DNA of 64,000 bases from positions 1-64,000 of the forward strand of contig JAJYCL010000001.1 of assembly GCA_021778415.1 (NCBI GenBank), in the 5' to 3' direction. Source of the DNA: a bacterium. GTDB taxonomy: Bacteria > Vulcanimicrobiota > Vulcanimicrobiia > Vulcanimicrobiales > Vulcanimicrobiaceae. Each line of letters opens with the position of its first letter. The first letter of the stretch is position 1. Below are positions 33,898-58,972 of this stretch, one piece after another. The notes below the pieces were generated by a model. The model searched no databases. It was given only the letters and a program-made list of their open reading frames with translations, and had not been told where the DNA came from. The translations under genes were made by a program, and so were the position numbers.

Positions 33898-34595
33898 CGC
33901 CTCGCCCCCTCCATCTGCTCGCCGCCGATGCGGTGCTTGCCTGTGTGAGAAACGCGATCCCCTATTCCATGACGCTTTTCGCCGGCGTAGCCATCACCGA
34001 ACTTGCACGCATGACGCTGCTCAACGATGTGCAGACGCAACTGTTTTTTGGCTTCATCGTACAACCGATACAAATTGCAATCGTCTACGCCTTTGCAACT
34101 GCGCCGAGCGACGCACGCGGCGACACGTTTTATCGCGCATTTGAGCGCTCTTGGGCCGTCATCTTGATCGATTTTGCGATGAATTTCATTCAAGTCCCGG
34201 CGCTCGCATCGGTCCAGAGTGGAGGCCTGTTTGATGCCTTTCTCGGGGGGCTGCTCATGAGCGCGACGGCGTTTCTCATTTTCGCCGATGTCGATGCCGT
34301 CGTCGGCTCCCACACCTCCCTCGTCGGCCTGATTCCGAGTGCCCTTTTACGCTCGATTCGGGTCATCGTGAGCCGCCGAATCTACCCCCGTGCCTTCCTG
34401 ATTCTCATGCTGCAGATCGCAGTCTACGCCGCTTCGGTGGGCTTCGAGGGCCTCTTAGCGCATCGTTTCTCGCCTGGGTTTGCCAGTACGATTTCCGATG
34501 TCGTGCTTCAGACGATCACCGTGGCGCCGCTGGCCGCCTTTACCGCGCTCGTCTATCGTGAGGCGACATCCCGGGAAAGCGGGACCGATGAGTGA
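33894..34595 (+). CDS. polytopic membrane protein of unknown function
   Basis: A 233-aa protein with about six hydrophobic segments (ITELARMTLLNDVQTQLFFG; AFLGGLLMSATAFLIFADVD; FLILMLQIAVYAASVGFEG). It starts at GTG overlapping the stop of the gene before it, and it overlaps the sigma-factor start by 8 bp. That tight linkage suggests it could be the membrane component of the signalling unit, but no known sensor or anti-sigma motif is visible. Confidence 0.65.
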   Translation: MTPRPLHLLAADAVLACVRNAIPYSMTLFAGVAITELARMTLLNDVQTQLFFGFIVQPIQIAIVYAFATAPSDARGDTFYRAFERSWAVILIDFAMNFIQVPALASVQSGGLFDAFLGGLLMSATAFLIFADVDAVVGSHTSLVGLIPSALLRSIRVIVSRRIYPRAFLILMLQIAVYAASVGFEGLLAHRFSPGFASTISDVVLQTITVAPLAAFTALVYREATSRESGTDE

Positions 34596-35286
34596 AACCA
34601 GAGTGGACCGGGATGGGGTCGATGAGCGCATGAGCGCCCTTGCACCACTCCTGCGGGAGTATACTGTGCCGACACCGATCACGAGCGCCAGGCCGGGTGC
34701 TGCGAACGTATCGTCATCGCTGCAATCGTTTGACACCATTGTCGATGACTATCAGCGCAAGCTCTATGGCTTTGCACTTCGCATGACGGGAAACCGCGAG
34801 GATGCCGAGGAGATCGTCCAGGACGCGTTCGTTCGCGCCTATCGCGCCCTCGGAAAAATGTCCGCCGAACAACGCGCCGAGTTACGGCTTCAGCCCTGGC
34901 TCTATACGATCACCTTGAATGTTACGCGGAACCGCTTGCGCACGAAACGGCCGCTGAGCATCGCTCTTGACGCACTTGCCGATCCCGACGCGTTATTGCG
35001 CGGGGTCACCGATGAGCCTCCGCGGCCCGAGCGGATCGTCGAACAGAATGCAGAGGTCGCGCTGGTCGAGCAGGCGCTCTTACAACTTCCTATGCATCTA
35101 CGCGCCGCCGCAACGCTACGCTTCATCGAAGGGCGTAGCCATCCGGAAATAGCTGAGATATTAGATCAGCCGATCGGTACGGTGAAATCGCATGTTCATC
35201 GCGCCGTTCGCATTTTACGACGAATTCTCGGCCCGCAAATCGGCCGCATGGTTCGCGATGAGGAGGATACCGATGCGTTGTCGTGA
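34588..35286 (+). CDS. ECF-type (extracytoplasmic function) RNA polymerase sigma factor
   Basis: A 232-aa sigma-70 family factor. Region 2 is at about residues 48-115 (FDTIVDDYQRKLYGFALRMT, EDAEEIVQDAFVRAYRAL). Region 4 is at about 165-215 (LPMHLRAAATLRFIEGRSHP, IGTVKSHVHRAVRILRR). There is no region 3, as in the ECF group, and it has an unusual N-terminal extension of about 45 residues. The start overlaps the membrane protein gene. The 3' end overlaps the anti-sigma/alkyltransferase gene by 14 bp, the usual sigma/anti-sigma arrangement. Confidence 0.93.
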   Translation: MSETRVDRDGVDERMSALAPLLREYTVPTPITSARPGAANVSSSLQSFDTIVDDYQRKLYGFALRMTGNREDAEEIVQDAFVRAYRALGKMSAEQRAELRLQPWLYTITLNVTRNRLRTKRPLSIALDALADPDALLRGVTDEPPRPERIVEQNAEVALVEQALLQLPMHLRAAATLRFIEGRSHPEIAEILDQPIGTVKSHVHRAVRILRRILGPQIGRMVRDEEDTDALS

Positions 35287-36013
35287 GGTTGAAGCACTTT
35301 GGGACGAGGTGCGCGAGGACGCGACGACCACCGTCAAAGATGCGGTCCAACGTCATTTGGGTCTTTGTCCACCCTGTCAGGATCTCTTTTCCGAATACGA
35401 AGGTGTCGCCTATCGTCTTTCTGCGTTGCCCGCGCCTGAGCCGTCATGCGATCTCGCGCGTCGTGTTGTCGAGCATATCGCAGCGATCACTGCGCACGAA
35501 CGCAAAGAGTCGATCATCCTTACCTCGGTTGCCACACCAATCGGACACATTTTCGTTGGTTACCGCAACGATAGCATCGTCTTCATCACCATGGCGGATA
35601 CGAGCGACCCACAGCGCGTGCGGGCTCAGGCGGAACAGCGGCTTCGTAGCCCGGTTGTTCTCGGCGAGACACCGGCCTGGCTCATAAAAACCCTGGACGG
35701 ATTCTTTGCCACCTGGCGAGTCGACGACAAGAGCGTCGACCTCTCCGATCTTACGCCATTCGAGCAGCAGGCGTTGCGAGCGGCCGCCTCGATTCCGCCC
35801 GGAGAAGTGCGATCGTACGCCTGGATTGCCGGAAAAATCGGACGTCCCAAAGCGGCGAGAGCCGTGGGGCAGGCCATGGCCCGCAATCCCGTTCCCCTGC
35901 TCATGCCCTGCCATCGGGTGGTTGGATCCAGCGGCGACCTTCACAACTATGGCTACGGACTCGAAATGAAGGCTCGATTATTGACGATGGAAGGGTATCG
36001 ACTCGAACGATAG
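35273..36013 (+). CDS. fusion of zinc-binding anti-sigma (ZAS) domain with O6-alkylguanine-DNA alkyltransferase
   Basis: A 246-aa protein. Residues 1-about 60 carry a ZAS-type anti-sigma motif: Cys3, then HLGLCPPC (His28-x3-Cys32-x2-Cys35) in a helical context. Residues about 85-246 are an apparently complete Ogt/MGMT-like alkyltransferase. It has RSYAWIAGKIGRPKAARAVG, the hinge Asn, the active-site LMPCHRVVG (Cys213) and a C-terminal YGYGLEMKARLL. The start is fixed by GAGGAGG about 5 nt upstream and by overlap with the sigma factor. ZAS domains hold partner ECF sigma factors; the alkyltransferase moves alkyl groups from guanine to its own Cys. The fusion suggests alkylation-triggered sigma release (inference). 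Domain calls are strong; the regulatory role is untested. Confidence 0.9.
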   Translation: MRCREVEALWDEVREDATTTVKDAVQRHLGLCPPCQDLFSEYEGVAYRLSALPAPEPSCDLARRVVEHIAAITAHERKESIILTSVATPIGHIFVGYRNDSIVFITMADTSDPQRVRAQAEQRLRSPVVLGETPAWLIKTLDGFFATWRVDDKSVDLSDLTPFEQQALRAAASIPPGEVRSYAWIAGKIGRPKAARAVGQAMARNPVPLLMPCHRVVGSSGDLHNYGYGLEMKARLLTMEGYRLER

Positions 36014-36027
36014 CCAAACAACGAAGC

Positions 36028-36738
36028 GTGTCGAAGCACGTTTTAATCGTCGGTTTTGAACCATTCGGGGGCTCTCTCGTCAATCCGAGCGAGATGCTCG
36101 TCAACTCCTTGTCGGGAATGAGGATTGCCGATCGCCCGATTGCAACGAGCGTTTTACCCGTTGAATCGCGTTCACTTGGTGAACGTCTCGGGCAACTTTT
36201 GCTCGAAGTGCAAGCCGACATTATCCTCGGCTTCGGACAAGCCGCCGGATGTGCGGCCATCGCATTGGAACGAGTTGCCGTCAACGTCCTTGATTTCAAT
36301 CAACCGGATAATGTTGGCGTGACGCGGAGCAATGAACAGATCGTCCGCGGTGGCCCCGATGCGCGGCTTTCAAACCTCCCTTTCGACAAAATCGTCGAAG
36401 CTTGGCATGCAAACGGCGTCCCAAGTTATACCTCCAACTCGGCTGGAACGTTCATCTGTAATCAATTCCTCTACGAACTTCTCGGACGCACCGAGAACGC
36501 ATCGCCGCCCGTCATCGCCGGCTTCGTTCACCTTCCGTACTTGCCAAGTCAAGCAATTGCGGCCGGTTCTCAAGCCAACCCGTCGATGTCGTTCGACCTG
36601 ATGAAAAAAGCCGCCGAACTCCTCATCGAAACGCTTGTCCCCTGGGTGGATAACCGCACACCGGAACCGACGCGACCTCGCGATCCGGGCAAACCGCAAA
36701 TGTGGATCCCCCGCGGCATAAAGGAAGCAGAACGCTGA
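36028..36738 (+). CDS. pcp: pyroglutamyl peptidase I
   Basis: A 236-aa cysteine peptidase (C15 family) that removes N-terminal pyroglutamate. The catalytic residues fall at Glu81, Cys144 (TSNSAGTFICNQ) and His168 (GFVHLPYLP), the same numbering as the Bacillus enzymes. The N-terminus GFEPFGGSLVNPSE is canonical. The start is GTG, 14 bp after the alkyltransferase fusion gene, on the same strand. The last about 20 residues are a Pro/Arg-rich tail that overlaps the next gene's reading frame. Confidence 0.93.
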   Translation: MSKHVLIVGFEPFGGSLVNPSEMLVNSLSGMRIADRPIATSVLPVESRSLGERLGQLLLEVQADIILGFGQAAGCAAIALERVAVNVLDFNQPDNVGVTRSNEQIVRGGPDARLSNLPFDKIVEAWHANGVPSYTSNSAGTFICNQFLYELLGRTENASPPVIAGFVHLPYLPSQAIAAGSQANPSMSFDLMKKAAELLIETLVPWVDNRTPEPTRPRDPGKPQMWIPRGIKEAER

Positions 36739-38456
36739 ACGACCCACGCATCGCCGCCATCCCCGACGTTCACGGGCACGCAAAAGGTGAACATCGGCCC
36801 TTCACCGAGGAACGTCCGATCCCATATTCGGCTCGCATGTTGTTCTTGTGGTTTTACCATGCATGTCGTCGCGGCTATCCGCGCTTCATGATGGTGAGCG
36901 ACCACGTGAATTATTTGACATTCGAAGATCCGGGTGCCGTCAATATGGCGCGACGAGCGCTCAAGCTCGCGCAAGCGGGAGATCTCTATGGCGCAGCAGA
37001 GGTGGCCGGCGTCGATGTCGCCGTCGCTGCAGTCGTCAGCGAAGGGATACGCCGTGGCATGCGCTTCGGCTTCGGTACGGAGGTCGATAACGACCCCCGG
37101 TCGCGCCCCGATGCGCAACATATCGTCGAAGCGATGCGGCCCGATGGGATTATTCGTTCGGTGCATTTCGTCACCATCGAACATCCGGAAAAAGGTGCTG
37201 ATTTCGCCTGGCCGTTCGATAATCCGGAGTTTGTCACGCTCTTCGAACATGTCGGAACCGAGCGTGTGTGGCAACTCTACATGGAGAAACTTCTCGACGA
37301 CATCGATAAGCTTCCAGGCAATATCGTCGGGCATTTTTACGTTCCGGCAAAATTCGGTCATTGGCCCGATCAAAAAACGCTCGAACACTATGAAGACCAA
37401 GTGCTCGACGCGTGTGCAAATCGCGGCATGGCAATCGAACTCAATACGCGGATATTCTATCGCGATTATCCAACCGAACAACGCGAAAAACATCGCGCCG
37501 CCTATCAGCGTCTCATTGCAAAGGCGCAAGATAAAGGCGTGGGCATCGCAATCGGTTCCGATGCCCACAGCCCCAAAGATCAAGGGAGTGGCTTTGACAT
37601 CGCCCTTGAAATGCTCGATCAAGCGAACATCAACGAAATCGTTTTTCCGATCAACGGGCGATTGGCTCGCGTTGCTTTGCGCGCGACGCAAGAACATCTT
37701 GAAGCCCAAGAAAAACGCGACCAACCCGCCCCGCTGCCGGGAAGTAGTATCACCGGATACGGGCGCGCGGAACTTGGACTTCCCGAACCCACTGAAGCCG
37801 AACTTGCAGCCGCAGCAGCGGCACGCCCGGCCCGCGCAGTCGGCGCTAAAAAGCGCACGACCGGCCCAACTCGCGTAGCCAAAGATGCAACCAAGGAATC
37901 CAAAGCATCGGCCAAACGCGCATCGACATCAAAAAAAGCCGGCCCTGCGCACGAAAAACCTGAACCACCAGCGACACCGGAAAGCGCGCCGAAGGTAGCA
38001 CCGGCCAAAAAAGCTGCAGCCGTAAAGAAACCCGCCCCGGAAAAGAAACCGGCGGCAAAAGCACCGCCGGCACCGGCAAAAAAAGTGCCCGTCGCAAAGA
38101 AAACTGCTCCGGCGAAAAAAGCGGTCGTCGTGAAAAAAGTTGCCCCCGCAAAAAAAGCCGTCGTCGCAAAGAAACCCGCGGCCAAGGCGCCGGTAAAAAA
38201 AGCCGCACCTCCGGCAAAGAAGACGGCTCCAGCCAAAAAAGCCGTTCCAGCCAAGAAGGCCGCACCGAAAAAAGCGGTCGCTGTGAAAAAACCCGTAGCC
38301 AAAGCTCCCGTAAAAAAAGCGGCAGCGGCAAAAAAGGCAGCGCCCGCAAAGAAGGCGATGCCCGCAAAGAAAGCCGTCCCCGTGAAAAAGGCACCCGCGA
38401 AAAAATCCAAGGCACCAGCTAAGACAAAGAAAAAAGCGACTCCAAAGCGTCGCTGA
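36702..38456 (+). CDS. PHP-domain protein with histone-H1-like Lys/Ala/Pro tail
   Basis: A 584-aa protein. Residues about 18-330 form a PHP metal-dependent phosphoesterase domain. His/Asp ligands lie in DVHGHAKGEH, VSDHVNYLTF, GFGTEVDND, SVHFVTIEHP, GHFYVPAKFGHW and IGSDAHSPKD. Residues about 380-584 are almost only Lys, Ala, Pro and Val in PAKKA-type repeats, like eukaryotic H1 tails and bacterial nucleoid proteins. The start is uncertain. The GTG given overlaps pcp by 37 bp with no ribosome site. A CTG at 36735 overlaps the pcp stop and has AAGGAAG 7 nt upstream, so a rare CTG start is possible. The tail predicts nucleic-acid or polyphosphate binding. Confidence 0.85.
   Translation: MDPPRHKGSRTLNDPRIAAIPDVHGHAKGEHRPFTEERPIPYSARMLFLWFYHACRRGYPRFMMVSDHVNYLTFEDPGAVNMARRALKLAQAGDLYGAAEVAGVDVAVAAVVSEGIRRGMRFGFGTEVDNDPRSRPDAQHIVEAMRPDGIIRSVHFVTIEHPEKGADFAWPFDNPEFVTLFEHVGTERVWQLYMEKLLDDIDKLPGNIVGHFYVPAKFGHWPDQKTLEHYEDQVLDACANRGMAIELNTRIFYRDYPTEQREKHRAAYQRLIAKAQDKGVGIAIGSDAHSPKDQGSGFDIALEMLDQANINEIVFPINGRLARVALRATQEHLEAQEKRDQPAPLPGSSITGYGRAELGLPEPTEAELAAAAAARPARAVGAKKRTTGPTRVAKDATKESKASAKRASTSKKAGPAHEKPEPPATPESAPKVAPAKKAAAVKKPAPEKKPAAKAPPAPAKKVPVAKKTAPAKKAVVVKKVAPAKKAVVAKKPAAKAPVKKAAPPAKKTAPAKKAVPAKKAAPKKAVAVKKPVAKAPVKKAAAAKKAAPAKKAMPAKKAVPVKKAPAKKSKAPAKTKKKATPKRR
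37980..38453 (+). repeat. low-complexity coding repeat (Lys/Ala/Pro)
   Basis: Repeated GCNAAAAAAG-type codon runs encode imperfect units such as PAKKA, VAKKP and APVKKA within the PHP protein's tail. The antisense strand reads as a long Phe/Gly-rich open frame, which is an artefact of the repeat. Runs of A here are slippage-prone, so length could vary between strains. Confidence 0.8.
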
Positions 38457-58501: not shown

Positions 58502-58972
58502 TTAACCTTTGTTCCGCTCGAAGGAATAGAGTCTCTCGCGCATGGAGCCCGGAGCACAGCCCTTGAGGCGACCGTCAGCACCGATGACGCGATGGGCCGG
58601 AATAAAAAGATCGATCGGCGTTCTTCCCATTGCCGCCGCGACGGCGCGATGGGCACCCGGGTGACCGACTGCGTATGCCACATCGGAGTAGGAGAGAAAC
58701 TCACCAAAATGGAGCCGCGACACGAGTCGCCATACGGCGCACTCGAATTCCGTCCCTTGCAATGCTAACGGTACCGTAAACACATCGAGTTGCCGACGCC
58801 AGTACGAGCGCACTTGTCGGGCAGCCTCCTGCAATAACCGCGATGGGCAACGAGCCCGCAGTGCCGTGCGCGCCACGAAATCGCCTGTTATGATCGCGGT
58901 TGACGAACACGTTAGTTCCAAGGCGAAATCAAATGGAGTAGGGATGACTCCGCGCATCGTCTTTTGCGGCAC
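58502..58972 (-). CDS. alkyltransferase-like protein (ATL), active-site Cys replaced by Ala
   Basis: A 156-aa protein of the Ogt/MGMT family, with FECAVWRLVSRLHFGEFLSY and the DNA-binding helix (VGHPGAHRAVAAAM). The active-site PCHRV is IPAHRVIG, so Ala126 stands where the methyl-accepting Cys should be, and the usual Asn of the NP motif is Thr (GRTPI). It cannot accept alkyl groups. ATLs bind O6-alkylguanine lesions and hand them to nucleotide-excision repair; I recall a Thermus thermophilus homologue with the same PAHR motif. The start is GTG with AGGAA upstream. Contrast the intact alkyltransferase domain at 35273. Confidence 0.92.
   Translation of the reverse strand: MPQKTMRGVIPTPFDFALELTCSSTAIITGDFVARTALRARCPSRLLQEAARQVRSYWRRQLDVFTVPLALQGTEFECAVWRLVSRLHFGEFLSYSDVAYAVGHPGAHRAVAAAMGRTPIDLFIPAHRVIGADGRLKGCAPGSMRERLYSFERNKG

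Follow-up and report, generated by a model that had tools for sequence, protein, structure and literature searches.

An ECF sigma factor gene overlapping a gene for an anti-sigma/alkyltransferase fusion in Candidatus Eremiobacterota: a possible ECF-based adaptive response to DNA alkylation

ECF sigma factors are the most abundant alternative sigma factors. In a bacterial contig (JAJYCL010000001.1, assembly GCA_021778415.1) the gene for such a factor overlaps a gene whose product joins a predicted zinc-binding anti-sigma (ZAS) domain to an O6-alkylguanine-DNA alkyltransferase, and this raises the question whether a DNA repair enzyme can act as the anti-sigma factor of its neighbour and report DNA damage directly to transcription. 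The window analysed here comprises positions 1 to 64,000 of this contig and belongs to a draft genome of 2.59 Mb, which is the genome covered by the genome-wide scans. An initial annotation had read the pair as a possible one-step sensor of DNA alkylation, perhaps acting together with an adjacent membrane protein (33894) and a 101-aa protein (33592). A sigma/anti-sigma pair containing an alkyltransferase is what we also find, and the two additional partners had to be given up. The features of the locus are as follows.

34593-34620, plus strand: candidate ECF-type promoter of the pair, with -35 TGAAACC (34593-34599) and -10 GGTC (34617-34620)
34630-35286, plus strand: ECF sigma factor, 218 aa, conserved start MSALAP, matching Sigma70_r2 (2e-15) and Sigma70_r4_2 (4e-13)
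35273-36013, plus strand: anti-sigma/alkyltransferase fusion, 246 aa, with its ATG inside the sigma gene (14-bp overlap, translational coupling)
35273-35494, plus strand: predicted zinc-binding class I anti-sigma domain, residues 1-74
35279, 35354, 35366 and 35375: predicted zinc ligands of this domain, Cys3, His28, Cys32 and Cys35
35513-36010, plus strand: O6-alkylguanine-DNA alkyltransferase (MGMT/Ogt) domain, residues 81-246
35909-35911, plus strand: codon of the alkyl-acceptor Cys213 of the MGMT domain, in PCHRV

Both open reading frames lie where they had been annotated and share the 14 bp from 35273 to 35286; Cys3, His28, Cys32, Cys35 and Cys213 are all present. For the sigma gene the frame and its end at 35286 were retained, and the start was revised: the original start at 34588 precedes the conserved promoter, and the conserved start is the ATG at 34630, giving a protein of 218 amino acids that begins with MSALAPLLREYTVP. 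The closest solved relative of the sigma factor in a profile search against the PDB is SigW (5wuq, E=7e-42), the partner of RsiW.

A protein search for the fusion (60 relatives) found the full-length protein in every one of the 36 genomes from the window's family and in all four from a second family of the order, altogether in 41 of 41 genomes when the window is included. The fusion with its adjacent sigma gene is thus order-wide in Candidatus Eremiobacterota, occurring in two families and in every genome checked. The sigma gene is located directly upstream, adjacent or overlapping, at all 41 loci, and of the 39 pairs that could be parsed, 32 overlap by 14 bp and four by 11 bp. Identity to the window protein goes down to 43% across the 41 members, and C3, H28, C32, C35, C213 and H214 are invariant in all of them. 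The same arrangement in 41 of 41 genomes makes the pair more than chance. The initial annotation had named loss of the fusion in relatives through a misassembly and a lack of conservation of the ZAS Cys/His residues as observations that would speak against it; full-length conservation rules out a misassembly or a chance fusion, and within the order the four zinc-binding positions do not vary. At the class level, the loci examined contained MGMT homologues only and no sigma-MGMT pair.

Neither 33894, the membrane gene, nor 33592, which encodes the 101-aa protein, was found beside the pair in any of the relatives whose neighbourhoods were compared, and the promoter of the pair begins at the stop codon of 33894, which places both genes outside the system. 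Downstream of the pair the window encodes a pyroglutamyl peptidase (36028-36738, plus strand) and a PHP-domain protein with a Lys/Ala/Pro-rich tail (36702-38456, plus strand); one or both of these genes are syntenic with the pair in many relatives.

Is the N-terminal half an anti-sigma domain? Its profile (residues 1-77) matched RsiW (5wuq) in the PDB with E=6e-5, the match extending through helix 4, and RslA (3hug) with E=0.015, and the Pfam match of the zinc-finger half alone to zf-HC2 was marginal (E=0.027). Among the NCBIfam models, 'anti-sigma factor' matched 38 and the RsrA model 34 of the 41 members, member 1 being under the curated cut-off for both. AlphaFold predicts helices at residues 3-16, 19-31, 33-50 and 61-74 with modest confidence (pLDDT 55-74), and this half of the model gave no match in Foldseek, so that the homology rests on sequence profiles. 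Taken with the Hx3Cx2C motif, the additional N-terminal Cys and the four predicted helices, the profile homology to RsiW and RslA identifies the N-terminus as a predicted class I zinc-binding anti-sigma domain, in agreement with the ZAS pattern noticed at the outset. In class I pairs, region 2 of the sigma factor is gripped by helix 4, the main sigma-2 contact of these domains, and region 4 by helix 1 (PMC7406223). We infer that the domain binds the sigma factor encoded next to it.

Redox sensing is common among soluble ZAS proteins (PMC7406223), and the pair might be a thiol/zinc redox switch of the RsrA kind, in which the sigma factor is freed once the zinc cysteines are oxidized or nitrosated, and the MGMT domain is only repair output, fused for stoichiometry. 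Four zinc ligands that are invariant in 41 of 41 members are also compatible with thiol sensing, and 34 members are matched by the RsrA model. We nevertheless consider this explanation unlikely, since the zinc of RsiW, the closest solved relative, is reported as structural (PMC7406223), and since the related pairs of other phyla described below are without the zinc finger and have kept the MGMT domain, usually with an Ada domain.

The C-terminal half matches Pfam DNA_binding_1 (PF01035) with E=4e-30 and was modelled with high confidence. In Foldseek it has the fold of Mycobacterium tuberculosis Ogt (E=9e-13) and also of human AGT and Ada-C. The apparently complete O6-alkylguanine-DNA alkyltransferase of the initial annotation is therefore upheld, with Cys213 kept in 41 of 41 members. 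In the AlphaFold model only about six residues separate the end of helix 4 from the start of the MGMT domain. Pfam found no Ada zinc domain (PF02805) in the window fusion, and an AraC-type DNA-binding domain was absent from this protein and from the four related proteins scanned. As the fusion is the sole MGMT homologue with a catalytic Cys in the genome, it probably also performs the DNA repair there. A second MGMT homologue is encoded in the window (58502-58972, minus strand), in which the acceptor Cys is replaced by Ala (IPAHRV); this Ala is kept in eight of the eight closest orthologues (L266-L273), so that the product resembles an alkyltransferase-like (ATL) protein of the Ala type.

In nearly all genomes of the order, TGAAACC-N17-GGT(C/T) is found 35-39 bp before the conserved ATG of the sigma gene. 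The pattern GAAACY-N15-17-GKT occurs in 37 of the 41 upstream regions, compared with 0.23 expected from dinucleotide shuffles, and the spacer columns of the alignment are nearly random. This conserved ECF promoter ends just before the start of the sigma gene, and the pair is therefore probably autoregulated. In the window the ATG follows the -10 element after 10 bp, and the transcript would thus be nearly leaderless.

A pattern scan of the window's genome returned no promoter-placed match other than that of the pair itself, and the motif counts in the relatives are low and little above the reversed-pattern control. A large regulon was rejected on these grounds; the direct target seems to be mainly the pair, and in the window's genome the regulon may be restricted to it. 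The initial annotation had proposed a search for an ECF promoter shared with other repair genes. A motif of this kind is present before the pair and, in other phyla, before two further MGMT genes (L252 and L253), but not before the AlkB genes of Eremiobacterota. The overlapping genes, the autoregulatory promoter and the few other targets in Eremiobacterota would also suit a feedback thermostat that senses no damage, the anti-sigma domain merely balancing sigma factor and enzyme while another signal, for example the supply of sigma factor, sets the output. This seems quite improbable to us, because it leaves unexplained why the other part of the protein is always an alkyltransferase with an intact active site, and likewise why an extra Ada sensor domain is present elsewhere.

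The initial annotation had also suggested a search for ZAS-MGMT fusions and their neighbours, and related pairs were found in Actinomycetota and Chloroflexota. Our scan of genome contigs comprised 80 loci, these two phyla among them. At 42 loci outside Eremiobacterota an ECF sigma gene is located directly before an MGMT gene on the same strand, mostly with a 4-bp overlap; the sequence counts that follow refer to 41 of these loci, for which the complete sequence could be read. The catalytic Cys is present in every one of these 41 MGMTs, and 40 carry a C-terminal Ada domain with four Cys (CxPxC...CxxC), which Pfam confirmed in four of the proteins. These distant proteins are without the zinc finger, and a short N-terminal segment aligns with helix 4 of the anti-sigma domain; in the partner from Nonomuraea the N-terminus was modelled as helices 5-12 and 19-25. 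These partners share with the Eremiobacterota fusions a helix-4-like segment and the MGMT domain, and not the zinc finger; the input part common to all would hence be the MGMT domain and not the zinc site. A pure redox switch is made less likely by this pattern, in which the family as a whole can do without the zinc finger and not without the MGMT domain.

In bacterium HR23 a single protein (L077:5989-6915, plus strand), encoded behind an ECF sigma gene, contains a zinc anti-sigma domain, an MGMT domain and an Ada domain, and it is a possible intermediate between the ZAS-MGMT and the MGMT-Ada types. In the MGMT tree the Eremiobacterota fusions are grouped (99/94), their joining to the other sigma-linked MGMTs is without resolution, and HR23 is on a long branch. 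One Eremiobacterota genome (G030) encodes both a ZAS-MGMT pair and an Ada-type pair of sigma factor and MGMT-Ada protein (L047:1884-3210, minus strand) that is Actinomycetota-like. Whole-genome sampling yielded full-length members in 14 of 81 Chloroflexota and two of 79 Actinomycetes genomes. These fractions are rough: the genomes used as centres are included, and in each genome only some of the candidates were scored. A sigma gene lies directly upstream of all 13 full-length members newly retrieved, and five partial MGMT hits from the same sampling have none in this position. A locus from a metagenome-assembled genome labelled 'Proteobacteria' (L128; compare L208) encodes the same protein as a genome of the Chloroflexota sample (G162), and its label is probably wrong.

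The distant pairs have the same kind of promoter architecture as those of Eremiobacterota. Of the 41 regions preceding their sigma genes, 31 contain TGCAAC and 23 contain GGTGTT, where shuffled sequences give 1.5 and 1.6; the two elements together form the predicted promoter TGCAACC-N14-GGTGTT, 36 bp before the start. The GCAA of the actinobacterial -35 element was considered as an Ada box and dismissed, as pairs lacking the Ada domain carry GCAA and the Ada-containing locus L101 is without it.

The neighbours of the partner genes include AlkB, 3 and 24 bp downstream in two Acidimicrobiia loci, and an AlkA-like HhH-GPD gene 60 bp downstream in one further locus. The regulon search in other phyla gave 20 sites that were read. 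Two of them lie before the MGMT genes L252 and L253 mentioned above, and the remaining sites are in open frames, have no evident gene downstream, or precede genes that are not clearly connected with repair. Matches at Dtd genes (L255 and L256) look like conserved coding sequence and were not accepted as promoter sites. Though few, the repair neighbours point to alkylation repair. L253 (G068:C2:4700-6700) is from Pseudonocardia alaniniphila, where a divergent second MGMT gene stands behind TGCAACC and its coding sequence seems to be split between two frames. A gene judged by eye to encode a DMT/EamA-like transporter follows the pair in one Chloroflexota genome (L103:6731-7663), and another such gene, likewise recognized by eye, follows a TGCAACC...GTGTT site in a different Chloroflexota genome (L259).

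The partner protein might also be a positive factor: once alkylated it would guide the sigma factor to promoters, or else the sigma factor would bring the enzyme to transcribed DNA. Such an activator or tether would fit the distant partners, which have only a short anti-sigma helix and the Ada domain, and the group ECF122, which PMC8999054 lists without an anti-sigma factor; E. coli Ada offers an analogy, as it activates through contact with a sigma factor, sigma70 (PMC4437013). The Eremiobacterota protein and that of HR23, however, carry a full anti-sigma domain whose solved homologues inhibit, and we regard this explanation as very improbable.

The reading we prefer, to which we assign a probability of roughly 60%, is that the pair regulates its own expression and constitutes an ECF-based adaptive response to DNA alkylation, with the inhibition of the sigma factor being relieved by self-alkylation of MGMT. 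Alkylation is indicated as the input by the Ada-domain homologues, the AlkB and AlkA-like neighbours and the invariant catalytic Cys; we infer that it is the trigger, by what route the signal reaches the sigma factor, and the release itself. In the unstressed cell the anti-sigma domain, with helices 1-4 held by zinc, would mask the sigma factor. The MGMT domain would take an alkyl group from O6-alkylguanine onto Cys213, irreversibly. Alkylation of MGMT destabilises the protein and disrupts the contacts between its N- and C-terminal domains (PMC10779285), and the alkylated domain of the fusion might similarly open and be destabilised, possibly with subsequent degradation. This change would be passed to the adjoining helix 4, whose grip on sigma region 2 would be loosened or destroyed. 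The freed sigma factor could then transcribe its own gene and that of the fused repair enzyme from TGAAACC-N17-GGTC, and more of both proteins would be made until unmodified fusion exceeds the damage and the loop is shut.

A more far-reaching version has, in our view, slightly better than even odds: that a single protein is repair enzyme, damage sensor and anti-sigma factor, with irreversible self-alkylation of MGMT freeing the sigma factor, that it forms with the Ada-domain versions a second, ECF-based adaptive response, and that it supplies the missing anti-sigma element of ECF122-like sigma factors. If true, a suicide enzyme of DNA repair serving as anti-sigma factor would be a new class of input for ECF sigma factors, and there would be an adaptive response to alkylation that is independent of Ada-type transcription factors, in phyla in which little work has been done on this response. 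Many MGMTs are stoichiometrically alkylated by O6-benzylguanine, which makes the proposed switch accessible to a simple reagent in vitro.

How does the pair compare with known systems? Our literature search found neither an anti-sigma/MGMT fusion nor an ECF-based alkylation response, although the supplement of the ECF classification may say more. The claim that no ZAS-alkyltransferase fusion had been described is consistent with this result, and it has to be qualified by the association of ECF122 with MGMT, which is already listed (PMC8999054). We therefore claim novelty for the fusion, for the promoter common to the pairs and for the mechanism proposed here, and not for the neighbourhood of ECF sigma factor and MGMT genes. 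For ECF122, PMC8999054 (for the Casas-Pastor classification) gives 6-O-methylguanine DNA methyltransferases as neighbours, no anti-sigma factor and a mechanism listed as unknown. MGMT is a conserved neighbour of the sigma gene here as well, and the actinobacterial sigma-MGMT pairs are probably ECF122. Unlike the neighbour in that entry, however, the one described here has either a complete anti-sigma domain, in Eremiobacterota and HR23, or a remnant resembling helix 4, which would offer ECF122 a testable mechanism.

The closest solved relatives of the two proteins are SigW/RsiW and SigL/RslA, with the Cx24-26Hx3Cx2C pattern in common; RsiW and RslA are membrane-anchored and have extracytoplasmic inputs, whereas the C-terminal half is here a cytoplasmic DNA repair enzyme. 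A cytoplasmic zinc anti-sigma domain is also found in RsrA and ChrR, and ChrR likewise has a C-terminal sensor domain, but these proteins respond to thiol oxidation and singlet oxygen, and the alkyltransferase is absent from them. With E. coli Ada the system would share a suicide alkyltransferase that is a damage sensor and induces its own gene, and the AlkB and AlkA-like genes and the Ada zinc domain of the Ada adaptive response recur in the related operons of other phyla. Unlike in Ada, the output would be an ECF sigma factor and not an AraC-type DNA-binding domain, and the window protein is without an Ada zinc domain.
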